Shown here: in pieces, positions 9,913 to 58,720 of the stretch
Layout: every line of letters begins with the position of its first letter
How positions within the stretch are numbered: position 1 is the stretch's first letter
Source: Pyropia yezoensis
Lineage: Eukaryota > Rhodophyta > Bangiophyceae > Bangiales > Bangiaceae
Direction: 5' to 3'
Assembly (NCBI GenBank): GCA_009829735.1
Contig: CM020620.1
Coordinates: 14,877,420 to 14,941,419, forward strand
Length of the DNA stretch: 64,000 nucleotides
The notes under the pieces: generated by a model
Told to the model about the DNA's origin: nothing
Databases searched by the model: none
The model's input: only the letters and a program-made list of their open reading frames with translations
Position numbers and translations under genes: made by a program

Positions 9913-10884
9913 TCACCACTTCCCCTCCCACTCCATACCCACCACTGACGACGGCACGTCTAATTTTGACCCCATCTGCGACAACGGAACTCGAAAGGTC
10001 TGCCGGTAGCCTGCTGACATGTACAGGCGCATGGCCGAAACCATTGTCGACAGGGTGGTCAGGTTCACGCGGTTCACTCCATCCGAGACCACAGCGGAGT
10101 GGAGGGCCGCGATGAGGGCGCGACCGATACCCCGGCGGCGCGCGTCGGAGGCGACCGCCATGCGCACCAGCTCCACAGAAAGTTGAGACTGAGGGGGCTG
10201 GGCGCCGCCGTCTTCGCCGCTGCCAGTACCACCATTATCTCGGCCATTGGTGACACCGCCGCCACTATCGGCATCAGCGTTTCCGCCACCGCCTGCGCCC
10301 GTGTCGTCCCCACGGCCGCCGTCACCTTCGCCATCACCACCATCACCACCGCCACCGCCATTAGCATCACTTCCACCATCACCGGTGTTGTGAGAATTCT
10401 CGCGTGCCGCACCCCCCGGCGGGCCGACAGGCACCTTCGGCGGCTTACCGCCCACACACCCCAGCACAGCTCCCGATGCCACGTCAACCGCTAGAAAAAA
10501 GTACCCCCGCGGTGACCCGCGAGGTGACGACGACGACTGCGGTGACAGCGACGGTGGCGCCCTCACGGCATCCCCCCCCTCCAGCGTCCCCCCCGCAGCC
10601 TCTTCTTCGGCAGCCCTGACAGACGGCGTCAGCGGCCGCAGCGCGTATGAGGCGGGAATGTCAGCGAGGTCGGTCGTAGCAGTGGTCTCCGCCCAGCGTC
10701 GGACAGAGGCGCCTAACTGCCCGTCCGGATCGAGACCCGCCGCCTCGCCGTCGGCGGCAACGTCGGCCATGCCACCACGGAAGAGCGAAATCGCCGCGGA
10801 TGTGTCGGCAGCGGCGGCGTCGGGGGGCGACACCCGGAATGGGCGCACTGTCACGCCGGGGGGATAATCGGCAAGGATATCCAT
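9913..10884 (-). CDS. GNAT-family N-acetyltransferase with large Gly/Asp insertion
   Basis: This 323-residue protein starts at an ATG (10884). The C-terminal part shows the GNAT acetyl-CoA site: strand VELVRMAVASDAR, then the motif-A loop RRRGIGRAL (about residues 249-257) with the Arg/Gln-x-x-Gly-x-Gly/Ala pattern that binds the pyrophosphate, then a helix and the motif-B stretch MRLYMSAGYR. The earlier strands (GYFFLAVDVASGAVLGCVGG, about 130-150) form the N-terminal half of the sheet. About 80 residues of Gly/Asp/Asn between the two halves (encoded near 10215-10400) are unusual for this fold and must be a disordered loop. GNATs acetylate amines using acetyl-CoA; the substrate here is not predictable, though the spacing resembles NAT8-type enzymes. 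Confidence 0.75.
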   Translation of the reverse strand: MDILADYPPGVTVRPFRVSPPDAAAADTSAAISLFRGGMADVAADGEAAGLDPDGQLGASVRRWAETTATTDLADIPASYALRPLTPSVRAAEEEAAGGTLEGGDAVRAPPSLSPQSSSSPRGSPRGYFFLAVDVASGAVLGCVGGKPPKVPVGPPGGAARENSHNTGDGGSDANGGGGGDGGDGEGDGGRGDDTGAGGGGNADADSGGGVTNGRDNGGTGSGEDGGAQPPQSQLSVELVRMAVASDARRRGIGRALIAALHSAVVSDGVNRVNLTTLSTMVSAMRLYMSAGYRQTFRVPLSQMGSKLDVPSSVVGMEWEGKW

Positions 10885-18600: not shown

Positions 18601-18943
18601 GTTTTTCGAGTGCCCGCGTACTCCTTTGGCTAGCCCCGCGCGCGCTTTGCCCTTGGTCGTGGGGCAGTCGCTCTGAGGCGCTTCGGTGGTAGCGGCTGCT
18701 TTTTCTCACCCGTCCCCTCGTGTGGGGTCATAGATTCGGGCTCGACTCCCTTACTCTCTACGTACCGTCGTGGTCGCGCCGTTTCAAGAGAGTGGGACTC
18801 GCGTCGTCACACCCACCAGCACGCAGAGTAGTATCCCCACGCCTACGCCCTCGTCTGCCTGGGAGGTTGACCCCCGACCCCACAAGTCTGCGCCTCCTCC
18901 TGCATCGTGGCTCCCCCCCACCGTCCACCCACTTGTGCTGACC
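15684..18943. other. Gene-poor region with repeats and AT-rich islands
   Basis: No gene is recognised. The stretch contains the 13-base tandem repeat (16111-16195) and two islands rich in A and T (about 16620-16915 and 17885-18050) that stand out from the GC-rich surroundings. The last 250 bases are C-rich leader of the bHLH gene. Confidence 0.45.
16111..16195. repeat. 13-base tandem repeat
   Basis: About six to seven head-to-tail copies of CTTTCAGAGACAT, with later copies changed to CACC or CAAC at the end. Related but degraded units (CTCTCAGAGACC) precede it from about 16070. Confidence 0.85.
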
Positions 18944-20344
18944 ATGCCTTCCCTGTCTCCCTTGGCGCCCTCGGACTTGGCCGCCCGGAGGCTGCCGCCT
19001 TTGCCACCACGGAGCGGCCGCGGTGGGGCCGATGTCTTTCGTGACGGATCGCCCCTCCCCAGCGGCAGCGGTGCCAGCGGTAGTAGCGGCAACAGCAGCG
19101 GCAGCGGTCAAGGTGGCAGCGGCAGCGGTCAATGTGGCAGCGGCGGGCGCGCCTCCCCCTTCCCCGACTCGACGGCTGCGACCCCCCTTCGCGCGGCGAT
19201 CACCCCCCCCAGCGGCGGCAGTTCGACTCCCCCCTCGTCTCCCAGCTTTGACGTTCGCCGTGCCGCCGGTAGGGCCCGTGGCGGCGGCAGTGGCGGCGGC
19301 AGTGGTGGCAGCGGCGGCAGCGGCGGCAGCGGCGGCGGGCCGCATGGCGGTCGGTGTCAAAAGCAACGGCACAAGGAGGTGGAGCAGCAACGCCGCCGTC
19401 GCCTGCGCGCGTCGGTTGAGGCGCTGCAGGCCACTCTTCCGGCGGCGCCGCCCGGCGTGCGCCGCAACGTAGAGGCCATTGTGACGGATGCAGTCGCCTA
19501 CGTGGCGCGGATGCGCAGACGGATTGGGCAGGTGACGGCGACGACCAGCGCGCTGACCGAGCGGGCCACCGCGTGTGAAGCGGAGGCTGCGCGGCTGCGG
19601 GCGGCGCTGGCAGCTGTGAGCGTGTATGGGCCGGCGGCGGCGGCAGCCGCTCCTGCCGTTGCCGACACGGGCGCCACCATGTCGTTTGTGACGGCCCTGG
19701 AGCCGCCGTCGACCACTTCTGGGCTGCTGCCATCGCTAGCGACAAGGCCAAGGCCGGCGTCGACGCCTACGCTGGCGCCAATGCTCGCGGTCTCCCCGAC
19801 GCCGAGCGAATCGGCCACGCCGGCTCCGGCGGGTGCGCTTCCCCCCGCGCGTGTCATGTACTCGCTCCCCCCCTGTGGCGGCGGCGCCCCCAGCGGTTGG
19901 TCGCTTTCGCATCCCCACCACGCCGCTGTCGGTGGTGCTCACGTGCTGCCGCCGCTGTCCCAGGCCTCGTGGTCGTACCAGTGGGTGCCCGACTGGCGAG
20001 CGCTGCCGCCGTCCGCCTCCCCCACCGACGCGGCTGCTCCGGTCGCCACAGGTGCTGCCGCTGGCGGTAGCCCCGGCTGGTCGATGCCACCGCTACCAAC
20101 AGGCGGATTTTGGGCGTCCCCCAAAGTGGACGCATCTGGCCCATTGGTCTACCCGCAGCCCCTCTTGTCGCTGTCGACTGGGATGGTTGGGGAGCCACAC
20201 AACGGTAGCACACCCCCTGCGGCTAATCCGGCAGTGGCTGGTGCACCCTCGCTGCCGCTGTCTGACGGCTGGCAACGACAACGGCGGCTCGCTGCCGCTT
20301 CGAGCAGCGAGCAACGACCGCACTGGGCCGGCACGGCCCGATAG
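18944..20344 (+). CDS. bHLH transcription factor (first of a pair)
   Basis: This 466-residue protein carries a basic helix-loop-helix domain. The basic region QKQRHKEVEQQRRRRLR has His143, Glu147 and Arg151 in the H-E-R spacing that reads E-box or G-box DNA. Helix 1 (LRASVEALQATLP), a loop, and helix 2 (VEAIVTDAVAYVARMRRRIG) follow, and a helix with regularly spaced hydrophobics extends to about residue 230, suggesting dimerisation. Gly/Ser-rich and Pro/Ala-rich stretches flank the domain. Near the C-terminus is SWSYQWVPDW, which resembles WPYHWVPSPW in the second bHLH protein downstream. The frame is open back to a GTG at 18770; the ATG at 18944 (ACCATGCC) is the likely start. The protein should act in the nucleus as a dimer; its targets are unknown. 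Confidence 0.8.
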   Translation: MPSLSPLAPSDLAARRLPPLPPRSGRGGADVFRDGSPLPSGSGASGSSGNSSGSGQGGSGSGQCGSGGRASPFPDSTAATPLRAAITPPSGGSSTPPSSPSFDVRRAAGRARGGGSGGGSGGSGGSGGSGGGPHGGRCQKQRHKEVEQQRRRRLRASVEALQATLPAAPPGVRRNVEAIVTDAVAYVARMRRRIGQVTATTSALTERATACEAEAARLRAALAAVSVYGPAAAAAAPAVADTGATMSFVTALEPPSTTSGLLPSLATRPRPASTPTLAPMLAVSPTPSESATPAPAGALPPARVMYSLPPCGGGAPSGWSLSHPHHAAVGGAHVLPPLSQASWSYQWVPDWRALPPSASPTDAAAPVATGAAAGGSPGWSMPPLPTGGFWASPKVDASGPLVYPQPLLSLSTGMVGEPHNGSTPPAANPAVAGAPSLPLSDGWQRQRRLAAASSSEQRPHWAGTAR

Positions 20345-27308: not shown

Positions 27309-27313
27309 TCGTC
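27309..27313. repeat. Target-site duplication, left copy (TCGTC)
   Basis: The five bases TCGTC directly precede the 5' LTR and recur directly after the 3' LTR at 36972-36976, as expected for Ty3 integrase. Confidence 0.9.
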
Positions 27314-27887
27314 TGTAGCATCCCTGGCCCCGACTTGGCGCCGACCCGGGACTGCAACCAGAGGGCACCAGGTGCCAGAACACGCCCGCCGTGTGGCGAT
27401 GGTTGGCGGCCGTGGCCCGTGCCCGGCACTGGGATGCGGTGGACTACGCTATCCACACGCGAGAGAGGGATTTCTGATGTGTTTTTGCATATTTGTGAGG
27501 GACTTGATTTGAGAGAATTTGAGTGTGAGATTAGTGAGTGGGAATAGAATTAGTAGTGATAGTGGCCCCCGACCTGACGAGGTTAGACTCGGGTCGGGGC
27601 CACTCGGGGTTATGGGGGGGGGCTACCGGGCCAACGTGCCGGGGTTCCCCCAGATGCACGTTAAGAGGGACAGCGAGGCGCCCTCGGCCCGCGCCCTCAG
27701 GGAAAAAGACAACTGCGCGTTTGCTTTCCTCTTCCCCGTGTGCACTACCGTGCGTATCTGTTTGCCCTGCAAGCAGGCACGTGAGGCAACAGGCATACCA
27801 TTCTCGTAGTTCCCCTTTCTGCGTTACCTGTCCCTTTCCCCCGAGGGATATTGACACGTGTCTGAGAGGATCGAGTTTTATACCACA
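27314..27887 (+). repeat. 5' LTR of the chromovirus
   Basis: 574 bases, beginning TGTAGCATCC and ending TATACCACA (TG...CA ends). It matches the 3' LTR at 36398-36971 with no difference that I noticed. Confidence 0.95.
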
Positions 27888-27891
27888 TATT

Positions 27892-27909
27892 TGGTGGAGC
27901 AGCAGGGGA
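27892..27909 (+). promoter_or_regulatory. Candidate primer-binding site
   Basis: TGGTGGAGCAGCAGGGG begins four bases after the 5' LTR. Its TGG start fits the CCA end of a tRNA. The tRNA species is not identified. Confidence 0.5.
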
Positions 27910-28100
27910 TTGATTGGAGTGTTTGAGAAGAGACATTTGGGAGCAGCGGTTGCGTTGTTCCTATTCTGTCTTTTTCTGTGGTTTGGGAATTATTTGCACC
28001 CGTTCACGGGAACCCCATTCCTGGCTCTCCAACCCCTCTCTTGTGGTCTTGCGATCTTTGGACACGCAGGTAACTGGACTGTGGCTGTCAAGAGACCAAC

Positions 28101-29861
28101 ATGGCTACCCTCCCTGGCACGACGGTGCCCGAAGGGGTAGACCCCGCGTCCCTTGACGCATCCCTGGTCACCGCGGGGGACGGTGCCCAACCCGGCGTTC
28201 TCCCTACGGGTGAAGCAGACCTGGGCGGGACATCCGGTAGTGGACTGGAGTCTACAGGCGGCCAAGTACCCCCTGCTCCCGTTCCTCCGGCTGTTCCTCC
28301 TGTGGGAGCCACCCCGGGGTCAACGGCGTTTGAGTCCGCTCGCAGCAGACGTCTCCCTCCTGTCGGTCCTACTCTTCAACCTCCAGGGATAGCCCCTGGT
28401 GTGTTTACTCCTGGACCCACACATGGCAGCTGGGTGTATACACCTCTTCCTGTGGGCACTAGCAGTGCCAGAGGCACCGCTATGACTGGTTCTACGGGTC
28501 TTCCTGAGACTTCAACTCCTGGGACCGGCCAAGCTTTTCCTCCCCTTGCGTCCTATGGGGCGGGGAGCTCCAAGACCGGTGACCGGAGCAGCCGTAGGCG
28601 TCGGCGTCGTCGCCGCCGCTCTAGCACCAGCGAGACCAGTTCCTCCAGCTCTGAGGAGGGATATGACTGGGATGCATCTCCCGGTCCTACCCGGCGCAGG
28701 CTAGTCGAGTTCGACTTCCCTGCCCACCAAGTGGGAGATGCCACCCTGAACAAGGTCACGTATTGGGGTAACTACCGGCTGGAGAACCAAGACCAAGGTT
28801 ACACCCGGAAGATGGCCAAGAAGATGGCATCCCTGAACCGGCGAATGCAGCCGAGCTTTGGGGGACATCCTAAGTTTTCCGGGAAGAGACCGGCGCTTAT
28901 CTTTGCCTTCCTGCGCCGGTTTGTCAAGGCATGCAATGACAACGATGTGTCCGAGGGCAAGGCTCTCTATCTCCTGGTTAACTTCATGACCGGAGAAGCG
29001 GAACAGCGGTTTGCACAGGTTCTACCAGACTCTGCCGGGCACATTGTTGGACGTACCGTCGCGAGTTATCCGGAGGCGGTCAACTGGCTCCTGTCCAACT
29101 ACGCAGACGCGGACTCCCTGCGTAAGGCAGTCGGTAGGCTGAACCGGGCAACCATGGAGAGACAAGAGACTCCAGAGGCGTTCGCCCGTCGTGTCCGGGA
29201 GATGAGCGATGCTTGTGGCAACGTTTACCCTGAGGACAGGCTCAAGATGATCTTCTCGGAGGGGCTTCCTGAATATCTTCAAGTGGATGCGGAGAACTAC
29301 AACCAGGAACATCAAGAACATACCTTCCAGCAGTTGATGGCCTACACCCAGGGCAAGCACCGGCAAGCCAAGGCCCTCCAGGCTCCTATGGTATCAACCC
29401 CCAAGCCGTTGTCGCGAGTTCGTCCCGGACCCGACAAGTATAAGGGAGGTGATAACCCTGTACCGGTACTCGCAGTTGGCGAGGCCTCACCCATGGAGTC
29501 AAGGGACAAGTGGGGCGGCTTCGTTTCTAAGGAGCAACCTTCCCTGGTCGCCCCCAAGCAGATCAGGAACCAGCGGTTCCGGTCTTGCTGGCTGTGCCAG
29601 AAAGAGGATCATATGTCCTACCAGTGCCCGACCATTCCCGAGGATCTCCAGGAGAAACTCAAGCGTCAAGGACTGGTGTTTGCAAAGGCGGTCAACTGGG
29701 CTGACCGGCGGGCACCCTCCAAGATGGACAAGGCACAGGTACATGCCATCCGAGTGGCAACCTTACAGAGCATCACGGAGGCTCTGGCAAGGGAAGCTCC
29801 TACGGACTTTGACCTGGAGACCGAAACCTCTAAGGACTCCTCGGAGCCGGGAAACGAGTAG
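28101..29861 (+). CDS. gag: Gag polyprotein of the chromovirus
   Basis: The 586-residue Gag has a Pro/Thr/Gly-rich N-terminal third, an arginine run with flanking serines (about residues 160-175), the retrotransposon Gag domain (about 255-430, including FLRRFVKACNDNDVSEGKAL and FARRVREMSDACGNVYPED), and one zinc knuckle with Cys496, Cys499, His504 and Cys509 in C-x2-C-x4-H-x4-C spacing. It should form the virus-like particle and package RNA. The ATG at 28101 follows a 213-base leader. The reading ends at TAG 29859, and the last codons contain the -1 frameshift heptamer that leads into pol. Confidence 0.93.
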   Translation: MATLPGTTVPEGVDPASLDASLVTAGDGAQPGVLPTGEADLGGTSGSGLESTGGQVPPAPVPPAVPPVGATPGSTAFESARSRRLPPVGPTLQPPGIAPGVFTPGPTHGSWVYTPLPVGTSSARGTAMTGSTGLPETSTPGTGQAFPPLASYGAGSSKTGDRSSRRRRRRRRRSSTSETSSSSSEEGYDWDASPGPTRRRLVEFDFPAHQVGDATLNKVTYWGNYRLENQDQGYTRKMAKKMASLNRRMQPSFGGHPKFSGKRPALIFAFLRRFVKACNDNDVSEGKALYLLVNFMTGEAEQRFAQVLPDSAGHIVGRTVASYPEAVNWLLSNYADADSLRKAVGRLNRATMERQETPEAFARRVREMSDACGNVYPEDRLKMIFSEGLPEYLQVDAENYNQEHQEHTFQQLMAYTQGKHRQAKALQAPMVSTPKPLSRVRPGPDKYKGGDNPVPVLAVGEASPMESRDKWGGFVSKEQPSLVAPKQIRNQRFRSCWLCQKEDHMSYQCPTIPEDLQEKLKRQGLVFAKAVNWADRRAPSKMDKAQVHAIRVATLQSITEALAREAPTDFDLETETSKDSSEPGNE

Positions 29862-32800
29862 GGCAGGCGCTCTCCCCAAGTGTCTTCCCGAATCTCCAAC
29901 GGCAGGGTACTTCTACCTGTTCTCTCCTTGCGTGCCGGGAGAAAGGACGGCAGTTACCTGCTCAACCGGTAGCCGCCTGGACACCCTGTTTGTTCAAGGG
30001 GACCTTGCTCGTCCTGCGTAAGGAAAACCTCAAGATTAATGCTCGTATGCGTGTGGGGGATAGCCTCCCCCAAGCTGTTACGCCGGTGGTCGACACGGGA
30101 GCCGGACCAAGCGTCATCACTGAGAACCTGTTACCTCCGGGCTGGCGTCGACATGCCTGGAGAGCGCCTACCAAGACCCGGATTGTAGACGCATCAGGTC
30201 AAACCCTACGACCGCTTGGCCGTCTTCCCGTCGCCATCTATGTCAACAATGAACCAATGCTTTTTCCCTTTCTAGTAGTCAAGACCTTATCAGTCCCCCT
30301 CATCCTAGGCTGGGACTTCCAGAAGCAGCATGTCAAGAGCATCCTACCCGGAGAAGGAAAGGTGCAGTTCAACCATGGGGTTGTGTCACCAGTGCTGGAG
30401 CACCTGGACACCAAGGTTCGTGTGGCCAAGAACCAGAAGGAACGCATCCCACCCTCTACCTTGACCCTCATCAAACCGGTGCTCCTACCTCCTCGCTCGG
30501 AGACCAAGGTTCAAGTCACGACCCGGACTGCAGGTCAATGCCTGATCTACGGACGCAAGGAATTTCTGGCGAAACACCGATTATACCTAGCCCACGGACA
30601 CCACAAGAAGGTGGAGAGGCACACCCCGTTCTCGGTGCTGATCGTCAACGTGAGCCGGAAGCCAATAACCCTCGCCAAGGGCACTCGAGTTGGTACAGCA
30701 GAGCCTTACCGGGGGTCCGCCCGCGCTATGAGCAAGGAAGACCTCTTCAACCTGCAACAAGAGCTGGCATCCAACTTGACGGCCTTAGACGTATCTCCGG
30801 AACAAGAGCAGGCTGGCCGTACTACTCCGAAGCCGGAACAAGCACCGCCCGGGATGCCGAAGGTCAACCAAGAAAACGTCCCTCCCGACTTGAAGGAGGC
30901 ACTGGAGAAGCTTCTCCAGGAATATCGGCACCTGTGGTCTGGAGAGCTGGGCAAGATGGACGCCACCCTACACCGGATTCAACTCAAGCCAGATGCCAAA
31001 CCAGTGCACATGCACCCATACCGGGCTGGACCTCATCGCCGGGATGAGATTGAGAAGCAGGTTAACAAGATGCTCAAGATGGATGTTATCGAGCCGTCTG
31101 ATGGCGAGTGGGCTTTCCCGGTGGTAGTCGTCCCGAAACCTGGCGGTCACTTCCGTTTCTGCGTTGACTACAGACGCCTGAACGAGATGACAGTCAAGGA
31201 TGTATACCCGATACCCCGGATGGATGATTGCCTCGACTTTCTTGGTGATGCCACCCTCTTCTCGACGCTGGATTGTAATGCCGGTTACTGGCAGATCCCT
31301 CTGGCTGACGAGGACAAGGACAAGACTACCTTCACGTGCCACATGGGACTGTTCCGGTGCAAGCGTCTCCCTTTTGGTCTCACTAATGCTCCGGCAACCT
31401 TCCAGAGAGCCATCGACATCATCCTGTCGGGGCTAAGGTGGAGAACATGTTTGGTCTACCTGGACGACATCATTGTTTTCTCCAAGACCCCAGCGGAACA
31501 CCTGGAGCACCTTCGAGAGGTCCTGGCCCTCCTGTCCAAGGCTGGAGTTACCCTCAAGGCCGAGAAGTGCCACCTGTTTGAGACTGAGGTGGAGTACCTG
31601 GGGCACGTGCTGAGTCCGGGGGAGCTCCGAGTCAATGAGAAGAACATCAAGGCCCTCCGGCATGCACGGCAACCTAAAACCCAGACGGAACTCAAGAGCT
31701 TCCTGGGTATGTGCAACGTCTACCGCCGGTTCGTACGGGACTACGCTCTGATTGCCCGGCCCTTGACCAAGCTTACTAGCAAGAAGCTTCCAGCACAACT
31801 CCCGGTGTTCGATGAGAAGCAGACAGCAGCCTTCGAAGAGCTCAAGAAGCGCCTGACCACCACTCCAGTACTGGCGTTACCCAAGCGGGAGGGTCAGTTT
31901 GTTCTGGAGACTGACGCCTGTGGCGTCCAGGTGGGGTGCTCACTACTCCAGCAACAACCTGATGGGCACTTCCTCCCGATAGGCTACTACAGTCGCGTCT
32001 TGACTCCAGCCGAGAAGAACTATTCCACGACCGAGCGCGAGTGCTTGGCGGTCGTCTGGGCTTGCTTCCTGTTACGTCCATATCTTGAAGGACAAGAGTT
32101 CCTCATCCGGACGGACCACGCCAGTCTAAGGTGGCTGCTATGCATGGACAGCAGTCAAGGAAGGGTCGCCCGGTGGCGCCTACGCCTTTCGGAGTTCAAG
32201 TACAAGGTGTGCACCAGAGCAGGGAGGGAGCACCACTGTGCCGACACCATGTCCAGGCTGGAGACTCCTGCAGCCGATACCGGTCCTATCCCGGAGGAAA
32301 TACCTTGCTTCATCCTCCCGAATGTCGGACGTGGCTGGCACGCTCCCCTGTACGAGACACCTGACGCTCATCAACCGGTAACCATTCACCGGATGCTGGA
32401 GGCACAATTGACGGACCCTCAATGCTTGGAGCTTCGCCACCAAATGGACCTGAACCGGAACAGTCGCTTCTCCGAGTCTACAGACGGACTCCTGGTACGG
32501 GTGTCACCCTTCGATGGGGCAACTCAAGTCTACGTACCCCGGAGCCTACGGACTGACATCCTACGCCTGGAGCACTCGTCTCCCCAGGCCGGACATCCTG
32601 GTATCAATCGGATGTATGCTTCCATGAGACGACATTATTACTGGGAAACCATGGCCAGTGACGTCCATAAGTGCCTGGAGGCTTGTATTTCTTGTGCAAG
32701 GAACCGGTTGTCCCAGAGGAGGAAGACTTCTAAGCTACGCCTATTCCCTGCGGCGGAGCCCTTTGCAAGCTTAAGCATGGACATCCTGGGGCCCCTACCT

Positions 32801-33949
32801 GAGACCTCCAGTGGCAACATATACCTGCTCATCATTTGTGACCGGTTCTCCAAGTTCACTCGAGCAATCCCGTTGAGAACCATCACGGCTCTGGATGTCA
32901 CGTCGGCCTTCTGCGAGTACTGGATAGCTGCCTACGGCCCTCCAGACTCCGTCTTAACCGACAACGGTCCCCAGTTTGCATCCCTGTTCTTCCAAGGAGT
33001 CTGTGACCTGATGGGCATCAAGAACTTGTACACCACGACGTACCACCCTCAAACGAACGGCCAGGTGGAACGATTCAACCGGACCCTAGTGGACATGCTA
33101 CGGCACTACGTGGAGGAGCATCAAGAAGACTGGGACGAGCTCCTGGCTGTCCTCACTCTAGCCTACAACTCCCGAGTTCACCGGACAACGGGAGTCGCTC
33201 CACTCGACTTTGTCACCCCAAGGCGGCTGACCAACTTCTCCCTGGAAAGAATACCGGATGGTCTCCAGCCTGCACTGAAGTCAGGTCCCAAGGCAAAGGA
33301 TGAGTTCCTGGAACAACTAAAGCTCCTGCTCCCAAGAGTCAAGGAGTCAATTTCAAAGACCCAGGAGCGATACAAGCGGGACTATGACAAGGGTGTCCGG
33401 GAAAAGAACAAGGAACTGGGTGGTGGCGACTGGGTTTTTGTGGACAACCATAGCAAGACCCGGGGGAAGCTGGACTCTAAGACGGATGGACCTTATGAGA
33501 TTCTCAATACGGATGGCTGGACCTTCCTTCTAGACGTGGATGGCTCTCCGTACCGGGTGAGCAGCGACCATGTCACCCGAGCTCCACCGCCAAGCCAACG
33601 GGACTTGACCCGGCGTAAGCGGACTGCGATACCCTGGCTATCCCAAGAAGAAGGTCGGGAATTTGTCTACGTCAAGTTTGTCGACCATGCCTGGAGAGAT
33701 GGACGCCTGTACCTGCGAGTACGCTGGTTCGGCTTTAACCCAGCAGATGATACATGGGAACCCTCAAACCGGCTACCCATCGCGGACGTCTGTGCCTACA
33801 CGCGACGGAACGGGATCGAGGGCACTCCAGTGGCCAGAGCCGGCAAGATTCTGGAGTCGGACACGGAGGAGGACCAAGAGGACGGGGCCAACCAAGACCC
33901 TCGGGACGAGACGAGCTCACCCGCAACGGATGCGGAACAAGAGGATTGA
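29834..33949 (+). CDS. pol: Pol polyprotein of the chromovirus (PR-RT-RH-IN-chromodomain)
   Basis: The -1 frame opens at 29834 and has no ATG until 30047, so it is made by frameshifting from gag. Numbering from 29990, the aspartic protease has Asp35-Thr-Gly-Ala. Reverse transcriptase carries Tyr-Leu-Asp-Asp at 490-493. RNase H follows with ETDACG. Integrase has an N-terminal HHCC zinc finger (from about His862) and the catalytic triad Asp931, Asp991 and Glu1027, with 35 residues between the last two as expected. The C-terminus holds a chromodomain (about 1224-1277) with the aromatic residues of YLRVRWFGFNPADDTWEP. The protein processes itself, copies the RNA and inserts the DNA. All catalytic residues are present. 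The end is Asp/Glu-rich. Confidence 0.95.
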   Translation, partial: GLLGAGKRVGQALSPSVFPNLQRQGTSTCSLLACREKGRQLPAQPVAAWTPCLFKGTLLVLRKENLKINARMRVGDSLPQAVTPVVDTGAGPSVITENLLPPGWRRHAWRAPTKTRIVDASGQTLRPLGRLPVAIYVNNEPMLFPFLVVKTLSVPLILGWDFQKQHVKSILPGEGKVQFNHGVVSPVLEHLDTKVRVAKNQKERIPPSTLTLIKPVLLPPRSETKVQVTTRTAGQCLIYGRKEFLAKHRLYLAHGHHKKVERHTPFSVLIVNVSRKPITLAKGTRVGTAEPYRGSARAMSKEDLFNLQQELASNLTALDVSPEQEQAGRTTPKPEQAPPGMPKVNQENVPPDLKEALEKLLQEYRHLWSGELGKMDATLHRIQLKPDAKPVHMHPYRAGPHRRDEIEKQVNKMLKMDVIEPSDGEWAFPVVVVPKPGGHFRFCVDYRRLNEMTVKDVYPIPRMDDCLDFLGDATLFSTLDCNAGYWQIPLADEDKDKTTFTCHMGLFRCKRLPFGLTNAPATFQRAIDIILSGLRWRTCLVYLDDIIVFSKTPAEHLEHLREVLALLSKAGVTLKAEKCHLFETEVEYLGHVLSPGELRVNEKNIKALRHARQPKTQTELKSFLGMCNVYRRFVRDYALIARPLTKLTSKKLPAQLPVFDEKQTAAFEELKKRLTTTPVLALPKREGQFVLETDACGVQVGCSLLQQQPDGHFLPIGYYSRVLTPAEKNYSTTERECLAVVWACFLLRPYLEGQEFLIRTDHASLRWLLCMDSSQGRVARWRLRLSEFKYKVCTRAGREHHCADTMSRLETPAADTGPIPEEIPCFILPNVGRGWHAPLYETPDAHQPVTIHRMLEAQLTDPQCLELRHQMDLNRNSRFSESTDGLLVRVSPFDGATQVYVPRSLRTDILRLEHSSPQAGHPGINRMYASMRRHYYWETMASDVHKCLEACISCARNRLSQRRKTSKLRLFPAAEPFASLSMDILGPLPETSSGNIYLLIICDRFSKFTRAIPLRTITALDVTSAFCEYWIAAYGPPDSVLTDNGPQFASLFFQGVCDLMGIKNLYTTTYHPQTNGQVERFNRTLVDMLRHYVEEHQEDWDELLAVLTLAYNSRVHRTTGVAPLDFVTPRRLTNFSLERIPDGLQPALKSGPKAKDEFLEQLKLLLPRVKESISKTQERYKRDYDKGVREKNKELGGGDWVFVDNHSKTRGKLDSKTDGPYEILNTDGWTFLLDVDGSPYRVSSDHVTRAPPPSQRDLTRRKRTAIPWLSQEEGREFVYVKFVDHAWRDGRLYLRVRWFGFNPADDTWEPSNRLPIADVCAYTRRNGIEGTPVARAGKILESDTEEDQEDGANQDPRDETSSPATDAEQED
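29849..29855 (+). promoter_or_regulatory. -1 ribosomal frameshift slippery heptamer GGGAAAC
   Basis: In the gag frame the bases read G GGA AAC, the X XXY YYZ pattern of efficient -1 slippage, and lie three bases before the gag stop TAG. The pol frame is the -1 frame and is open from 29834, just upstream, so slippage here gives a Gag-Pol fusion. A downstream stimulatory structure would be expected from about 29861; I could not establish one by eye. Confidence 0.75.
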
Positions 33950-34094
33950 GAAGAAGGGAACGGGTATATCAAGGGTAACACGCAACGCAAGCATGGAACA
34001 ATCAAGGAAAACAAGCACCCGCTCGAGCAACCCTTCTCTCCGCCTCTTCCCTCCTCGCTTCTCCCAAGACCCTCACCCTCCTTGCATCCAACTA

Positions 34095-36212
34095 CTACTC
34101 CCGGCGCGGACGCTGAGCCGCGGGAGTGTCCTCCGGCGTTGCCTCCGCGGTACGACGGGAACCGGAGGAAGACGGGATGACGTAGTGCGGTGGACGCGGC
34201 GCATCCCGGTATGACGCCATCGGAGTAGTACCAGTAGTTGCCGGTGGCTCCCGCTCATCCAGATATGTCCGTCGGCGCCGCTGGAAGCCCGTGAAGGTCT
34301 CTGACCACTGCTGGGCCAAGCCATGCCGCGTCAAAGTCGTCAGAAGTTCGCCAACCACCGGGTTGTTCGACATCTGGCCGCTGTCCGCGCAAGCAAACAC
34401 CCGGTCGACCACGTCGTTCAAGACGCTGGCGTAAGTACCCAGCACCAGAGAGGACCCGACGCCTTCAACCTGCACCGGAAGACGACCCAGCTGGTCTTCA
34501 ATCATGCCGACGTCGTACTGGTCGCATGTTGGACCACCTTGGTTCAGGTACCAGTCAGGCACCCGGAAGCGGGTGAGGCGCAGAGTCGGCGCCGGAATCT
34601 CGAACCGGCCCGAGGATGACACTACCGGACGGTCCACAACGGCCCCCGAGACCGGAGTACCCAACTCCAGCGGAGGCACAGCGCCGCCGGCGTTGGAAGA
34701 AGGCGTCCGGGGTAGAGCGGCCGGAGTAATCGGCGACCGCACGGCCACTCCCAGACTCGCCGCAGACAAGCGCGGTGCCGGAGGAGCTTGAAGTACTGGC
34801 ACAGCCGGAACCGGGCGCGGACGTGCCGGTGACGGTTCAGGCGAGGCAACCGGGGCGACAGGGGCAACAGGAGGAAGCGGAGCCGCCGCAGACGCCCGAC
34901 CGACCGCCGCGACCCATCCCGACTCCTGTACCGGCGGCCCAACTGGCAGAAGATCAAGGGCGGCCGGAGCAGGAAAGCTACCTAGCTGCGGCCACGCCGG
35001 AAGCGGCGTCGCCAGCTGCACCTTAGCCGGAGAAGACTGGTAGACCACCTGCGCCCAACCGAAGCCATCCCGACGCGGGCGGTTCTGGTCGGCAATCGCG
35101 TTCAAGAAGTTCCGGTCATGCACCGGTACCAGACGCCGGAAGTCGATCATCGCCTGGAAGAACTCCTTGTACTCCTCGTCCTGGCTGCACAGGAAGTCGA
35201 CGGTCAACTTGTCGACAATCCAGACCATCAGGAGGTCGGGGAGAAACCAAAGCCGGTTGGACACCAAGACCTCGTGAAGCCAGTGGTTGGCCGCCAAGAC
35301 TGTCATCTCGGACGTGTACATCATGTACGGGATTGAATGGAAGAAGCCCTTGATCGACGCCTGAGTCAAGGCGTCCAAGAAGTACCAGGTGCAAGGGATG
35401 CTGGAAGGAGCAAACCCGACCGGGATCTCGACTTCCTGCTGCTGCGGGATGACCTTGGGGTAGTATGCCGCCCGGTTGGCCTTGTCCAGCTTCCAGAACT
35501 CCTGGTGGTTGCAGCTTACAAGGAAGTCACGCTGACGCCCGCGTCGCTCACCCTGCTCCCGTGCCGGCGACAACTTGGAGTATTTCCGGGTCAAGAAAGG
35601 CGGCTCCAGAGCGACCATGCTCGGACGGGGGTCGCAGTTCAAGCTTCCCGACCCCTTGAGCGCCTCGTCCCAGACCTTGAGCGCCCGGTGGACGTACCCT
35701 TCCTCCTCCGGCCACCGGAGAACGGACGCGGACACGCGACGCTCGGTCAGGGGTAGATCCAGTACCAGCGCGAAGGGGAGATCCTCCAGACGAGCAGCCC
35801 AAGAGGAACCCGAGAAGCTCTGGGAGCGGTCTTGTGCCAGGCGCATCTGGTCCGCCGTATGAAGACGTGCCTTGTCCATCTCGGTCAAGACCCCGCGCTG
35901 GAGTTCCTTGCGCCAGAGGTCCATGCAATCCTGCTGGCACTGGGCCGCCCCGGCGTTGCCGACCACCGTGGAGTAACGCCGGGCCGCCAGAGGGTCCTGC
36001 CCAAGAAGCATCTCCGGGAGACCCTCCGGGGGGGCCTCGACCGGGTGCATCGCGGAAGCCGGGGGAACTCGATCCGTCCCCGCCGTGGCGACCGGCGCCG
36101 GCACCGACATCCGAGGAACCGGAGGCAGGAGAGGGGCACGACGACCCGAGTTCTCCTCCGCAACACTCGCCGCCGGAACCACGGGCCCAGCTTGGATCTC
36201 GGAACTGGACAT
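34095..36212 (-). CDS. Antisense ORF inside the chromovirus, unknown function
   Basis: On the strand opposite gag and pol, from an ATG at 36212, is a 705-residue frame that fills the space between pol and the 3' LTR and is tail-to-tail with pol (145 bases apart). The frame is open back into the LTR to 36467, but without another ATG. The middle of the protein looks like folded protein, not a chance frame: mixed hydrophobic and aromatic residues (for example IPCTWYFLDALTQASIKGFF and NRLWFLPDLLMVWIVDKLTV), then DEEYKEFFQAMIDFRRLVPV. Pro/Ala-rich linkers flank it and the C-terminus is basic and Arg-rich. I do not recognise the family. Antisense genes are known in some plant LTR elements and in HTLV-1, so expression from an antisense LTR promoter is possible but unproven. 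Confidence 0.6.
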   Translation of the reverse strand: MSSSEIQAGPVVPAASVAEENSGRRAPLLPPVPRMSVPAPVATAGTDRVPPASAMHPVEAPPEGLPEMLLGQDPLAARRYSTVVGNAGAAQCQQDCMDLWRKELQRGVLTEMDKARLHTADQMRLAQDRSQSFSGSSWAARLEDLPFALVLDLPLTERRVSASVLRWPEEEGYVHRALKVWDEALKGSGSLNCDPRPSMVALEPPFLTRKYSKLSPAREQGERRGRQRDFLVSCNHQEFWKLDKANRAAYYPKVIPQQQEVEIPVGFAPSSIPCTWYFLDALTQASIKGFFHSIPYMMYTSEMTVLAANHWLHEVLVSNRLWFLPDLLMVWIVDKLTVDFLCSQDEEYKEFFQAMIDFRRLVPVHDRNFLNAIADQNRPRRDGFGWAQVVYQSSPAKVQLATPLPAWPQLGSFPAPAALDLLPVGPPVQESGWVAAVGRASAAAPLPPVAPVAPVASPEPSPARPRPVPAVPVLQAPPAPRLSAASLGVAVRSPITPAALPRTPSSNAGGAVPPLELGTPVSGAVVDRPVVSSSGRFEIPAPTLRLTRFRVPDWYLNQGGPTCDQYDVGMIEDQLGRLPVQVEGVGSSLVLGTYASVLNDVVDRVFACADSGQMSNNPVVGELLTTLTRHGLAQQWSETFTGFQRRRRTYLDEREPPATTGTTPMASYRDAPRPPHYVIPSSSGSRRTAEATPEDTPAAQRPRRE

Positions 36213-36384
36213 ACCGTCCAGACTCCGGGGAACGAGAGGGCCAAGGTGAAGGAGCGGAGGGGGGGGGGCAGAATCGGGGCAGGTGATCGTGACCGGGGTG
36301 AAGACGCTCGACCTCGGCACCGGTGTGGACGTGCTCGAGGCTGTGCACGGTGGCACCTGGTTCGGCCCGAGGACGTGCCGGACT

Positions 36385-36394
36385 AGGGAGGGAG
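36385..36394 (+). promoter_or_regulatory. Polypurine tract
   Basis: AGGGAGGGAG lies three bases before the 3' LTR and should prime plus-strand DNA synthesis. Confidence 0.75.
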
Positions 36395-36397
36395 CTA

Positions 36398-36971
36398 TGT
36401 AGCATCCCTGGCCCCGACTTGGCGCCGACCCGGGACTGCAACCAGAGGGCACCAGGTGCCAGAACACGCCCGCCGTGTGGCGATGGTTGGCGGCCGTGGC
36501 CCGTGCCCGGCACTGGGATGCGGTGGACTACGCTATCCACACGCGAGAGAGGGATTTCTGATGTGTTTTTGCATATTTGTGAGGGACTTGATTTGAGAGA
36601 ATTTGAGTGTGAGATTAGTGAGTGGGAATAGAATTAGTAGTGATAGTGGCCCCCGACCTGACGAGGTTAGACTCGGGTCGGGGCCACTCGGGGTTATGGG
36701 GGGGGGCTACCGGGCCAACGTGCCGGGGTTCCCCCAGATGCACGTTAAGAGGGACAGCGAGGCGCCCTCGGCCCGCGCCCTCAGGGAAAAAGACAACTGC
36801 GCGTTTGCTTTCCTCTTCCCCGTGTGCACTACCGTGCGTATCTGTTTGCCCTGCAAGCAGGCACGTGAGGCAACAGGCATACCATTCTCGTAGTTCCCCT
36901 TTCTGCGTTACCTGTCCCTTTCCCCCGAGGGATATTGACACGTGTCTGAGAGGATCGAGTTTTATACCACA
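36398..36971 (+). repeat. 3' LTR of the chromovirus
   Basis: 574 bases, same sequence as 27314-27887. The GTG that opens the long antisense frame lies inside it (36467). Confidence 0.95.
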
Positions 36972-36976
36972 TCGTC
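36972..36976. repeat. Target-site duplication, right copy (TCGTC)
   Basis: Same five bases as at 27309-27313. Confidence 0.9.
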
Positions 36977-44225: not shown

Positions 44226-46595
44226 TTAGTCGACCGGCGCAGGTTCGCTTGGAGTTGATCGGGGGCTCTCGGGTTGGCTCGACGAACTGTCAGGCGTCTC
44301 CGTGGTGGTGTTCGATTGGTAGTCGGTTTCAGTTGTCGAATCTGCGCCGCTGTCAGGAGCCAGGATTGACGGTGGGGAACTCGAACCCCCCCGTGTGCGC
44401 AGCGTTTCGTCCACAACTACATCCCGGCGCACCACCACCTTGCGCGTCGCGGGGTTGTAGAAACGGTACGCGTGTCCCCCAGCCGCGTAGCCTACCACGC
44501 GCCCGAGCGTTGTCTTCGGCTGCAGCTTCCGCTGCTGGCCCTTGGGTTTCAGCGCATACGCGAGGCTCCCCCAGATGCGGAGGCTGGCAACGTCCGGCTT
44601 TTTCCCTTATAAGCGCTGGTGCGGCGTAGCCTTCCCGTCACTTGTGGGCGCGCGGTTGCGTGTGTAGACGACCGCCATCAATGTCTCCGCCCACAGCTCC
44701 TCGCAGAGTCCGGCCTCCGCTAATATGGAGCGGACTCGCTCCATTAGGGTCCGGTTGAGGCGCTCGGCCTTCCCATTCTGCTGCGGGGTGTGTGTCGCCG
44801 TCAGCTCAAGACGGATCTCCCGCCGGGCGTAAACCGCCCGCATCTCCGCGGAGACCAGCTCCTCAGCACCGTCGCACCGTACACGCTTCACCCGTGCCCC
44901 AGCCTGTAGCTCCAGCTGGGCGATCCAGGCCTGGACCGCCTTTCCAGCCTCGCTCTTGTCCTTCAAGGCAGAGAACACCTCCAGCTCCGTCGCTTCATCC
45001 AGAACGGCGACAAAGTGGCGGGCCTTGCCCAGCGAGTCCGGGAGGGGCCCAAAGAGATCCATGTGGACCAGCTCGAGCTTTCCCGTGGCGGCGTCCTTGG
45101 CGCGGAACGGCTCGGCGTGCATCCGCCCCACAATGCACAGGTGGCACAGTGCCCCCTCTGTAGACGCGACGTCGGTGGCCTGCAATGGCGCCATGCCCTT
45201 GACGAGGGTACTTACGATGCGGAGGTTGGTGGCACTCAGGTGACAGTATCGCCTGTGCCAGAGGCGCGCCACCTCGCTGGACGCCTGACCAAAGGCCACG
45301 GTGGCCGCCGACGTCTCCTGCATACCGACCTCGTACTGGTTGCGGCTGTTAGGGGTCCCCATCATCGCCATACGGGCGGATGTGCGCACCGCACAGGTAT
45401 CGCCGATAAAGTCGACCGAGCCCCCGTGAGGAGTCACTGCCCTCACGGACAGCAAGTTGTCCGCCAGGCTGGGCACGTAGAGCACCTCCTCAAGGGTGAC
45501 CGGAATACCCGGCTGGGGAGACACGCGCAGGGACCCCTTGCCCATAGCCGCGGCCGTCTCCCCGTTCGCCAGCGTCACACGGAGCCCGTCCGTCGAGATG
45601 TAGTTGACCAATTGGAAAGAATTGTTGGTCATGTGATGACTGGCGCCGGAGTCAATTATCCAAATGTGACTCGAGTTGGTACGCGACCCGGATTGGCTGG
45701 ACGCGTCGGCTTGACCTGCCATAGGAGGGCGCGCGTCCTTTACAGTGGCCGTGAACGCCACCGCCCCAGACGAAACGTCGTCAGGGCATTGACCATGGCC
45801 GCCGCCGCCCCCGCTTCGCCGCTTCTTGTCTGCCGCCAATTTGCGGCACTCGTGACGGCGATGGCCCGGCTTGCTGCAATACCAGTAAAGCAGCTGCTTG
45901 GCGCCTGCTGAGGTTGGGCCGCGCGAGTCTCCTCGGCCACCACCGCCACTGCCAACCGGATGATAGGCGCCATACGCAATGGACGACTCCCCGCCGCCCT
46001 TGTGGGCCGTCTCCTTCTGCTCCACCTCGAGGGGTAGCAGTGCTGTGAGCAGCTGGTCCCACGGGAAGGAGACCCCCGCCGTCATCAGCACAGAAGTGAC
46101 CGTCTTGTACGCCGAGGGCAGGCCGGCCAGCACGTGCAGAACCGCCGTGTCCTCGCCGATTGGGTGACCCGCGCCGGCGAGCTCTGCTCGCAGAGTTTTG
46201 GCTCGCCCAACGTAGGTCATGAGCGCCTCGCCGTCGCACATTCGCAGGGTGGCGAGCTCACGCGTCAGCTGGACCTTACGCGCGCTGGTTTTACTCTGAA
46301 ACGCCGCCTCCAGCGCGCCCCAGGCTTGGCGGGCCGTCCCAGCCTCCGCCAGCGTGGGTAGGTGCTGGGTCTTGACGCCAAGTATGATCTCTGCCAGCGC
46401 TCTTCTGTCCTTCTGGTTGTATTGCTCCAGCGCGGCCGCCTCTCACTCGGGCGGCGGCGACTCCTCTATCGGTTGTGACAGGTCCTTGGTGACGAGGTGG
46501 GCTTTGAAGAGTAGAGCCCATGTGTTGTAATCCTCGTCCAGCTTGGGCACCCGGCGGTACGACAGGTCCTCCGCGTCGGCCATCAGCCCCTCCAT
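44226..46595 (-). pseudogene. Copia Gag, protease and integrase, broken by stops
   Basis: Gag probably starts at the ATG at 46595, with the copia block KLDEDYNTWALLFKAHL. An in-frame TGA at 46443-46445 interrupts it and the same frame continues through the rest of Gag. The zinc knuckle has lost its first Cys (YWYCSKPGHRRHEC, Tyr at that place). Protease has the intact active site IIDSGASHHMTN. The integrase zinc region (LWHRRYCHLS, then CHLC) and its core follow, with acidic residues in HMDLFGP, RCDGAEE and the Glu of NGKAERLNRTL. A TAA at 44607-44609 then stops the frame, which continues to TAA at 44226 through a Ser/Thr-rich linker. All these breaks are single-base stops in one frame. Confidence 0.85.
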
Positions 46596-54911: not shown

Positions 54912-57900
54912 ATGGCGGACGCGAATGGCACGGCCAACGGGGGCAGCGCCGCGGAGGTGATGGAGGACGTCCTCCGCCGCCTGCAGTCGCCCGACAATGC
55001 GGTGCGCGGGGAGGCCGAGGCGCAGTTTGTGGCGGCCAAGGCGACGCCCTCTGTGTGCCTCGAGGTGCTGGCGGTGCTGGCAACGGCCAGCGCGGATGAG
55101 CTGGTCCGGGAGGCGGCCGCAGTCCTCCTCCGCCGCACCGCCAAGGAGCTTTGGGGGGGGGCGGACGAGCGGGTGCGGCTTGGCGTGAAGAATACGCTCC
55201 TCCAGTCTATCCGGGGGGATTACCGCGACGGGTTGCGGAAGAAGGTACGTTGGGGGGGTGCGTGGGGGGAGGGTGCTTGGGTGGGTGGGTGTGGGTGTGG
55301 TGTGGGTGTGTGGGTCCCAGGCCGGGGGAGGGGGACGGCCATGAGGTGGGGGGCGCTTGTGGGAAAGTGGACCTGGCGTTGGGGTTGTGGAGTAGCTTGC
55401 TGTGCGCTCGCGGCAGCTGTTACGGCCGCTGTGATGACGGCGGTGCTCGTGCGCCCCTGGGAGGGCGGTATGGTTGGGCGGGCTCTGCGCTCTCTGGTAG
55501 CGATGGTTACGGGTCAAGGCTCGCTGTTACTTTGATGCATTGGTTGGGCAGAGCATCGGGACTGACCCGTTTGACGTTTGCATATCTGCTCGCGCCGACT
55601 TGCCTTGGCCTCACCCTTGTTCCCCACGTCCTCTTTCTCCGCACCGCATCCTCCACAACGCAGCTGTGTGACACGATTGGGTCTCTGGGTGGCCACTTGT
55701 TGTCAGAGAATGGGTGGCCCGAGCTGTTGCCGCAGCTGCTCTCCCTGTCGACCAGCACCGTTGCAACCGAGCGGGAGAGCTCCCTCTACATCTTTTCCCA
55801 GATCACATCCTACCTGAGCGCCGCCGACCTTGAGACGCAGGCGCCCACGCTGCGTGCGACGGTGGAGGTTGGCCTTGCGGACTCGGTTCCGGCGGTGCGG
55901 GTGGCGGCCCTGCGGGCGACGTGCGCCACTCTCAACGTGCTAGAGTCCAAGTCGTGCCGCGCCTTTGAACCGCAGCTCCCTGCGATGCTCACAGTGGTGA
56001 GCAGCTCCTTGGCGTCGGGCGACGAGATGGAGGCCCGCACGTGCATGGAGCTGCTGGTGGAGGTGCTTGACGCCGAGCCCCGCATCTGGCGGTCGCAGCT
56101 GGGTTTGGCCCTCAACCTCATGCTGTCTGTCGCGTCGGCGACGGCGCTGGAGGAGAACACCCGGCAGCTGGGCCTCGAGTTTCTGGTGGTGGCGGCAGAG
56201 AAGCTGCCCGGGGCGTGCCGTAAGCTTGGAACTTTTGTGCGCAGCGTCCTGCCCGTTGCGCTGGGCATGATGCTCGAGATTGAGGACGAGCCTGAGTGGC
56301 ACACCCGTGACGAGGAGGAAGAGGACTCTTCCGACTACACCAACTTTAGCGCTGGCCAGGAAGCGCTGGATCGTCTGGCCATGGCCCTCGGTGGCAAGTC
56401 TGTCCTGCCGATTGCGGAGGAGCTGCTGCCGGCGTACCTTAACTCGGCCGACCGGTGGGTAAACCGGCACGCGGCGCTGCTGGCCATTTCCCAGATTGGG
56501 GAGGGCTGCCGTAAGCAGCTCGAGGGCGGCAAGCTGGGCTCCGTCGTTGGTCTTGCACTGCATTCGTTCAAGGACCCCCACCCGCGCGTGCGGTGGGCGG
56601 CGGTCAACTGCGTGGGTCAGATGTGCACGGATTTCGGGCCGGGCATCCAGGAGCAGTTCCACGCACTCGTGCTGCCCGCCCTGGTGGGCGTCATGGCTGA
56701 CGGGGACGGTGGCAAGGACGGCCAGTCGGGGCAGGGGAGTGCGCGGGTTCAGAGTCACGCGGCGGCGGCGGTGATCAACTTTTGCGACGAGGCATCGCCG
56801 GCGATCATGGCGCCCTACCTGGACACCCTGCTTGGTCAGCTGATGGCGCTGCTGCAGTCCCCACGGCTAATGACGCAGGAGCAGGCGGTCACGGCGATTG
56901 CGGCAGTGGCGGACGCTGCGGAGACCCAATTTGACGCCTACTACGGCACGTTTATGCCCCCGCTCAAGGCTGTGCTGACCCGCTCGGCGGGCAACCAGCG
57001 GCTGCGGCGGCTGCGGGGCAAGGTCATGGAGTGCATCTCCCTGATTGGCCTCAGTGTTGGGCGCGAGCGCTTTGGCGCCGACGCGGCCGAGGTGATGGAC
57101 GCCCTCGTGCGCACCAGCGCGGACGCCGGGGTGGACGATCCCCAGGCGTTTTACCTGATGCAGGCCTATGCGCGCATCTGCCGGTGCCTGCGCGACGGCT
57201 TCCTGCCGTACCTGCCCTATGTTATGCCTGGCCTGTTGGCAGCGGCCTCCCAAAAGCCCGATATCGAAGTGCTGGGCGACGATGCGGTCGACGATGAGGA
57301 GGAGGGCCTCGAGACGGTTACACTTGGCGACAAGCGCATTGGCATTCGCACTGCGGCGCTGGAGGACAAGGCCACCGCCTGCACTATGCTGACCTGCTTT
57401 GTGACTGAGCTTGGTGTTGGGATGCTGGATTACGTGGAGCCCGTGGCGCATCTGATGGTGCCCCTGTTGCAGTTCTTTTACCATGACGAGGTGCGGACAG
57501 CAGCGGCCAATTGCCTGCCTGACCTGCTTCGGTGCGTCAAGAACAGCGGCACCCCGTCAGCGGGTACGGCGCTTACCCAGCTGGTGGCTTTCATGCTGCC
57601 TACACTGCTCGAGGCGATTGCCAACGAGCCAGAAACGGAGGTGTTGTCGGCTATGGTCGAGGCACTTGGCGAGATTGTGGACGTGGGCGGCGTTCACGTG
57701 ACTGGCGGTGCAGACGCGGCGTCTGTGCTGGGTGCAGTGGCCGCTTGCCTGGAGCGGGTGGTGACTGAGGCGGAGACCCGCCGCGGGGAGAGGGTAGCCG
57801 CTGCTGAGGAGGATGGCTGGGATGAGGAGGAGAACGAGGAAGCGAATGAGGAGGAGGCAAGAGAGGAGGAGCTGCTTTCCCACGTCGGCGACGCTATCGG

Positions 57901-58720
57901 TACCGTTGTGCGCAGTGGAGGCCTACCCGCGCTGGGCTCCCTCCTCGAGCACTTCTACGCGCTGTTGGCGTCGGATCGCAGCGGTGGGGAGCGCCGCGTT
58001 GCCCTGTGTGTGTTTGACGACGTCGTCGAGCACGGTGGTGCCGCGGGACTGGCGTGGATTCCCCGCGTACTCCCCGCTCTGTGTGCGTACGCGGCGGATG
58101 AGGACCCGGACGTGAGGCAGGCGGCCACCTATGGCGTGGGCGCTGCTGCCGAGGTGTGCGCGCTGGGCGGTGCTGAGGCAACCGCAGCGTTTATGGCAGC
58201 AGGCGGCGCCAAGGCGGCGCTCTCCCTCGAGGCGGTCATTACGGCGCCCAACTCGCGGGAAGAAGGCTCTGAGATGGCTACGGATAACGCGGTGTGCGCG
58301 CTGGGGAAGCTCCTTGAAGTGCAGGCTGGCTGTGTCGGCGGCGACGGCGTGGCTTCTCGCCTGGCGGGGGTGTGGCTAAGCTACCTTCCCCTCCGGGCGG
58401 ACGTGGCGGAAGCGCGCGTGGTCCACGCTGCGCTGGTGCGCGCGTGCGAGCGCGGGGACGAGCGGGTGTTTGGGGGCGCCACCTACGCGGGGCTGCCAAG
58501 GGTCCTCACCGTCCTCTCCGAAGTGATTGGCACGGAGCTCCTCGACGATGAGTACAGCAGCCGCGCCGTGTCGGCCATTGCGCGCATGCAGGCGGGGCTG
58601 CCGGCGGGGGTGCTCGAGGCTGCCATGGCGACGCTGTCGCCCGCGGCGCGGGCCAAGCTTGTCGGCTCTGGTGGGGGGGCGGCGGGCAACCACGCCGACG
58701 CGGCGGGCGCGAGCCACTAG
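54912..58720 (+). CDS. IPO5: Importin-5 / karyopherin beta 3 (IPO5, RanBP5 family), one intron
   Basis: Importin beta-type receptor that carries ribosomal proteins and histones through nuclear pores under Ran-GTP control. Exon 1 is 54912-55244 and exon 2 is 55664-58720, total 1,129 residues, about the usual length for the family. HEAT helices fill the whole protein. The junction reads DGLRKK then LCDTIGSLGGHLLSENGWPE, matching the conserved RKKxCD step of this family. The segment LGLEFLVVAAEKLPGACRK, the acidic WHTRDEEEEDSSDYTNF, the HPRVRWAAVNCVGQM helix and the acidic loop around EEDGWDEEENEEANEEEARE are typical of IPO5/Kap121. The start has CACCATGG context after a strongly pyrimidine-rich leader. 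Identification is strong. Confidence 0.93.
55245..55663 (+). other. Intron of the importin-5 gene
   Basis: 419 bases, phase 0, donor GTACGT at 55245 and acceptor CACAACGCAG ending at 55663. Both sides are needed for the conserved protein. The exon 1 frame runs on to a stop only at 55535. Confidence 0.85.

Follow-up and report, generated by a model that had tools for sequence, protein, structure and literature searches.

An antisense open reading frame between pol and the 3' long terminal repeat of a Ty3/gypsy retrotransposon of Pyropia yezoensis is probably an accessory gene

Does a long open reading frame (ORF) on the opposite strand of a retrotransposon encode a protein, and does it belong to the element that carries it? 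The question is raised by a 64,000-nucleotide stretch of Pyropia yezoensis DNA (assembly GCA_009829735.1, contig CM020620.1, positions 14,877,420 to 14,941,419; hereafter the window), in which a Ty3/gypsy element with a weak chromodomain match contains, between pol and its 3' long terminal repeat (LTR), a minus-strand frame of 705 residues with zero internal stops (34095-36212). An earlier note, made from the letters alone, had described this frame as an antisense gene that might be an accessory gene of the element or a captured host gene. The frame is as described, and what the note had seen is a real gene, though one not intact in every copy. The results presented here indicate that the frame is very probably coding and owned by the element; the complete interpretation that we favour, a genuine protein-coding accessory gene of the aORF-3R class, is probable.

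Selection on the antisense protein was analyzed in copies of the element chosen by their pol sequence. Twelve copies were taken from a list ranked by similarity to a 51-residue stretch of pol (chromodomain), eight of them from 32 lower-scoring rows and four from 118 identical rows. Three copies (L077, L080 and L082) were left out before counting, and the nine that remained have a shared history, their comparisons being non-independent. The ratio of nonsynonymous to synonymous substitution rates (dN/dS), which the earlier note had proposed to compare among copies, was 0.109 to 0.199 for single copies against the window copy and 0.167 when these were pooled. Of the remaining frames, the two antisense ones gave 1.38 and 1.98; values for the three sense frames were 1.12, 0.20 and 2.20. 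The value of 0.20 (0.200) belongs to the mirror frame, where third positions face third positions, and can be read as a shadow of the antisense frame because all sense frames across the gene are broken by stops (8, 11 and 11). The same stops indicate that the antisense frame is not the shadow of a sense gene. Conservation as a protein across family copies, by which aORF-3R (or eORF-3'R) genes are recognized, was thus found in nine of the 12 pol-chosen copies.

The variants in 72 sequences were also classified by frequency and compared with a null distribution of 2000 runs in which the same base changes were randomly placed, sites with three or more bases being excluded. Synonymous changes made up 51 of 75 variants at a frequency of 8 or more (null mean 21.8, maximum 37), 49 of 69 at a frequency of 2-7 (null mean 22.7, maximum 35) and 111 of 233 singletons (null mean 72.5, maximum 97). 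For all variants present in at least two copies the count was 100 of 144 vs about 45 expected. Singletons were nearer to neutrality than variants of the shared classes, a pattern to be expected when copies decay once inserted and selection continues on the lineages that go on transposing. In these comparisons of copies the antisense frame was shown to evolve under purifying selection as a protein.

A first sample had consisted of the 63 best full-length protein matches, the window copy included; it was ranked by similarity to this very protein and is therefore biased. Four of the 63 stretches contained N, and such cells were excluded one by one. No internal stop was found in 62 of the 63 copies, one of these 62 having GTG in place of ATG, and within the gene length varied only by a 9-bp insertion, present in two copies. 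Of the polymorphic sites, 46, 34 and 121 fell at codon positions 1, 2 and 3, respectively. Variants present in at least two copies were synonymous in 53 of 77 cases in the antisense gene and in 16 of 26 in the terminal 354 bp of pol, similar shares which indicate that the antisense gene is constrained about as much as the 3' end of pol; for singletons the counts were 66 of 121 and 8 of 21. Two wider tables, likewise ranked by protein score and biased, contained 122 stop-free rows out of 124 (ranked by the protein core) and 148 out of 150 listed (ranked by the C-terminal 121 residues). When positions 36213-36971 of the window, the gene and the end of pol were aligned with copies L009-L070, variants in at least three copies were commoner in the antisense gene (65 of 2118 sites) and the pol 3' end (23 of 354) than in the LTR (4 of 574) or the 185-bp spacer next to it (4 of 185). 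Recombination, or a sweep that recently affected the 3' end, may explain their scarcity in LTR and spacer.

Motifs of the gene and of pol were counted over the whole genome searched (107,475,971 bases in 11 contigs). This genome also contains 14 matches to the chlorophyll a/b-binding family, which mark it as that of a photosynthetic eukaryote; no RuBisCO large subunit was found in it, perhaps for lack of a plastid contig. A degenerate 26-base pattern covering residues 296-304 of the antisense protein had 347 exact matches, and 476 when up to three mismatches were allowed (reversed-pattern control, 0 and 0), and a degenerate pol pattern matched 416 and 1635 (controls, 0 and 2). Pairs were counted on contig C1 to about 26.6 Mb, among the matches listed for both motifs. 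Within this scope, 82 antisense and 100 pol motifs formed 61 opposite-strand pairs with a spacing of 1603-1647 bp, which was 1631 or 1633 bp in 45 of these pairs. The suggestion of an accessory gene is thus upheld by purifying selection, by a single length change (9 bp) in the 63 best-matching copies, by the 347 motif places and by the fixed offset from pol. The family with the antisense gene seems to be large, with part of the related copies lacking the gene or having a diverged one. Several of the unpaired antisense motifs have a different silent codon and no exact pol motif adjoining (on contig C1, for example, at 69544, 382903, 582058 and 3089843); these may represent subfamilies with a diverged pol, or copies without pol.

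Several observations weigh against this interpretation. Of the 12 pol-chosen copies, 11 have a pol frame open over at least 1302 codons, a tilt towards young copies, and the whole antisense gene was stop-free in only five (L071, L073, L074, L076 and L078), two of which, L073 and L074, align with 2 and 4 gap bases by blastn and with none by MAFFT. A single premature stop was present in each of L072, L075 and L079, a 2-bp insertion in L081 and a large internal deletion (1469-bp gap in the antisense gene) in L077, while the gene was missing or mostly so in L080 (500 N) and L082. As to presence in most copies, the counts are 61 of 100 pol motifs paired and five of 12 copies with a whole stop-free gene; no antisense motif was found beside the other 39 pol motifs and no pol motif beside 21 of the 82 antisense motifs, among the matches listed. 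In the wider tables 10 of 124 and 42 of 150 listed matches lay in open frames shorter than 705 codons, indicating that many copies are truncated or broken somewhere. The depletion of stop-making variants was weak: 0, 0 and 3 were found at frequencies of 8 or more, 2-7 and 1, vs 1.95, 2.04 and 7.8 expected, and the share of null runs with equally few was 0.139, 0.131 and 0.046. The earlier note had taken stops at the neutral rate in other copies as the sign that the frame is no gene; when this was checked the gene was not refuted, the synonymous excess being the strong result. Codon usage failed to single out the antisense frame, a wrong frame correlating with gag-pol as well (0.73 vs 0.67), and was discarded as an uninformative coding test. 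Furthermore, conservation of the antisense gene is shown within one genome only, and no domain or fold backing a specific role was found in Pfam, NCBIfam and PDB sequence searches.

The predicted protein is rich in proline and alanine at residues 1-70, 401-540 and 651-705, whereas these amino acids are sparser at residues 71-400 and 541-650, which look folded. No amino-acid variant common to two or more of the copies compared fell within residues 276-325. A single-sequence model of the whole protein had a mean predicted local distance difference test score (pLDDT) of 38 and a predicted template modelling score of 0.22; helices, which are tentative, were its only secondary structure, and the C-terminal region was the best-modelled part (pLDDT about 42-62). 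Short basic clusters at 378, 645-649 and 701 could, as a guess, be nuclear localization signals. The earlier statement that no family is recognized was confirmed: Pfam gave no match when the whole protein was searched at E 1 or when residues 72-400 and 523-671 were searched at E 10, NCBIfam gave none, and no PDB sequence match was convincing. A Rieske identity suggested by five PDB entries (best E 0.005) was rejected, as the match covered residues 474-555, a Pro/Ala-rich stretch, and so was a papain-like protease, the sole PDB match of the core (E 0.68). An ENV-like membrane protein was unsupported, the gene being antisense rather than sense and its top 19-residue hydropathy (1.54) borderline for a membrane segment. 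Relatives outside this genome were not found in viral contigs (where pol was also tried), prokaryote genomes or phages. Among the matches listed in a literature search, to which most subscription journals were external, no title or beginning of an abstract described this protein.

That the frame is a chance or shadow opening in GC-rich DNA, with no protein product, is extremely improbable. The region has 62-66% GC and few stops, and codon usage makes no distinction; however, when 400 first-order Markov sequences were modelled on the pol-LTR interval, their longest open stretches over the six frames reached 489 codons at most (median 215), vs 705 observed. A chance frame is also at odds with a dN/dS of 0.167 when four wrong frames give 1.1-2.2, with the 46, 34 and 121 variable sites by codon position in the 63 copies (protein-ranked and thus biased) and with 8-11 stops in every sense frame. 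The synonymous excess in pol-chosen copies refutes it, unless that sample is unrepresentative. The antisense RNA could instead be the key product, forming double-stranded RNA with the genomic RNA for silencing or self-limitation, with the protein secondary. Non-coding antisense transcripts do occur in other retroelements (PMC7264820), but a function at the RNA level leaves the 0.167 dN/dS of one frame unexplained, and we regard this account as very unlikely.

The remaining alternatives accept a protein and differ on its nature. A host gene captured in reverse orientation and keeping its original biochemical activity would be consistent with the lack of a retroelement-family match and with a gene interrupted by no intron. 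On the other hand, no host-family domain was recognized, transduced genes are usually sense-oriented (PMC7264820), and no host homologue was seen, although near-identical copies of the element (63, 124 and 150 scored) crowded the genome protein searches and would hide a diverged or single host homologue; capture is in our judgement unlikely. A structural, capsid-like second particle protein, with helical segments and Pro-rich linkers as in gag, agrees with the entirely helical model. Those helices are tentative at a mean pLDDT of 38, and the Pfam search found no zinc-knuckle match in the antisense protein. Compared with the gag of the same element, the protein aligned best over a Pro-rich stretch (E 0.11), and a capsid or gag relative was rejected. 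We consider such a role improbable.

An accessory gene owned by the element, the interpretation preferred here, requires a start and a promoter. The frame stays open upstream to GTG 36467, inside the LTR; since an extra base lies about 20 bp upstream of ATG 36212 in eight of nine related copies compared, coding most simply starts at this ATG, where the earlier note had placed it. Its claim that the gene exactly fills the interval from pol to the 3' LTR was nearly correct, gaps of 145 bp to the pol stop and 185 bp to the LTR being left on the two sides. On the minus strand, a single TATAAAA (36966-36960) occurs in the 760 bp preceding the ATG; it lies at the outer end of the 3' LTR, whose sense strand has no TATAA. 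Four ATGs, computed to be out of frame, lie between this motif and the antisense gene, none of them in the 185-bp spacer, so that in a transcript starting within the spacer ATG 36212 would come first. An inward promoter in the 3' LTR, which had been considered necessary, is thus one option and not a requirement, as the ATG-free spacer could hold the promoter. We infer that antisense transcription would proceed from a promoter of its own in the spacer or the 3' LTR, giving an mRNA of the opposite sense to the genomic RNA. The encoded protein, predicted to be helical with long Pro/Ala-rich stretches, would work inside the nucleus on the cycle of the element itself, possibly by controlling sense transcription, by escape from silencing or by helping nuclear entry or integration. 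Such a nuclear regulatory role is suggested tentatively and may well not hold. It is less probable still that the gene founds an undescribed protein family on which a large chromovirus-type family depends for its spread, and that its product acts in trans, perhaps by antagonizing silencing or as a second factor for assembly or targeting; this would be a three-gene, two-strand element.

The features of the element and its antisense gene are listed in Table 1. Its assignment to Ty3/gypsy follows from the two LTRs, the target-site duplication and the pol order protease, reverse transcriptase, RNase H, integrase (PR-RT-RH-IN). The LTRs showed zero differences over 575 bases (574 bp once trimmed to TG...CA). 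A match to Chromo (PF00385) at pol residues 1231-1260 scored 20.5 bits (E 0.00044), under the curated cut-off of 25.1, and lies where a chromovirus is expected to have it, at the C-terminal end of integrase. A nested DNA transposon with its own gene was rejected, as none of the five inverted pairs found spanned both borders of the antisense gene.

Table 1. Coordinates in the window of the retrotransposon, its antisense gene and associated features
Feature	Position	Strand	Remarks
Ty3/gypsy LTR retrotransposon, complete	27314-36971	+	LTRs, duplication, gag and pol
Left target-site duplication TCGTC	27309-27313	.	Direct reading
5' LTR, TG...CA, 574 bp	27314-27887	+	Identical to 3' LTR
gag ORF, 586 aa, zinc-knuckle match under curated cut-off	28101-29861	+	
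pol ORF, frame open from 29834; RVP, RVT_1, RNase H, Integrase_H2C2, rve, weak Chromo	29990-33949	+	
145-bp spacer, pol stop to antisense stop; polymorphism present	33950-34094	.	
Antisense accessory gene (probable), 705 aa, ATG 36212, stop TAG 34095-34097	34095-36212	-	
Helical core, residues 272-376	35085-35399	-	Low-confidence model
C-terminal helical region, residues 553-653	34254-34556	-	pLDDT about 42-62 in blocks of ten
185-bp spacer 5' of antisense ATG, without ATG; candidate promoter or 5' untranslated region	36213-36397	-	
Purine run AGGGAGGGAG, 3 bp ahead of 3' LTR; possible polypurine tract	36385-36394	+	Direct reading
3' LTR, 574 bp	36398-36971	+	
TATAAAA, outer end of 3' LTR; possible antisense TATA box	36960-36966	-	
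Right target-site duplication TCGTC	36972-36976	.	

Elsewhere in the window, a Ty1/copia-type gag-pol fragment (44607-46241, minus strand; Pol_BBD, gag_pre-integrs, Retrotran_gag_2 and rve) lies near the Ty3/gypsy element as a second retroelement. Four ORFs are of host type, encoding an AAA ATPase with more than one AAA stretch (117-2969, plus), a GNAT acetyltransferase (9913-10884, minus), an HLH factor (18770-20344, plus) and an importin/IPO5-like HEAT protein (55151-58720, plus).

Whether retrotransposon antisense genes make protein is often in doubt, and here one large family in one genome provides direct evidence of selection at the protein level. With several hundred copies, one or more of them with identical LTRs, such a genome is a good place to study the role of these genes, which are known in LTR retrotransposons but whose functions are described as not established (PMC7264820). 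Among algal elements, Chlamyvir is a chromovirus clade reported to be algae-specific (PMC6317226) and is set beside the present element by description only; in passages of that survey of extra ORFs, from which the size criterion used here was also taken, no antisense ORF is mentioned for it. Algal chromodomains are treated in PMC3350952. REM1 of Chlamydomonas reinhardtii, a Ty3/gypsy chromovirus of a green alga, also has a reverse-frame region, described with GPY/F and a chromodomain (PMC2774666). In the present element, by contrast, the chromodomain match is in the sense pol and the antisense protein has no Pfam domain. The REM1 reverse ORF reportedly contains a PHD finger.

Outside LTR retrotransposons, HBZ of human T-lymphotropic virus 1 (HTLV-1) is a bZIP factor, whereas no HBZ-like bZIP domain was matched by Pfam in the antisense protein here. 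The analogy is mechanistic: HBZ is an antisense gene of deltaretroviruses encoding a nuclear protein important in the viral cycle (PMC11963269), with the antisense promoter in the 3' LTR (PMC7264820). Boty of Botrytis cinerea has an antisense ORF between pol and the 3' LTR outside plants (PMC7264820), a likeness of position. The antisense ORF of Retand carries Transposase_28 (PF04195), for which the protein studied here gave no Pfam match (E 1 for the whole, E 10 for its parts). Grande and RIRE2 belong to non-chromovirus lineages. So does Retand (PMC11963269), whereas the present element has a chromodomain match in pol. Gene23 of maize Grande, rice RIRE2 and Silene Retand (aORF-3R) are likewise antisense, placed between pol and the 3' LTR and retained in many copies, and the Grande antisense ORF is reported to be transcribed from an upstream promoter and to have a nuclear product (PMC7264820, PMC11963269). 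By its position the gene described here falls into a class already known, and its protein had no match in any library searched.
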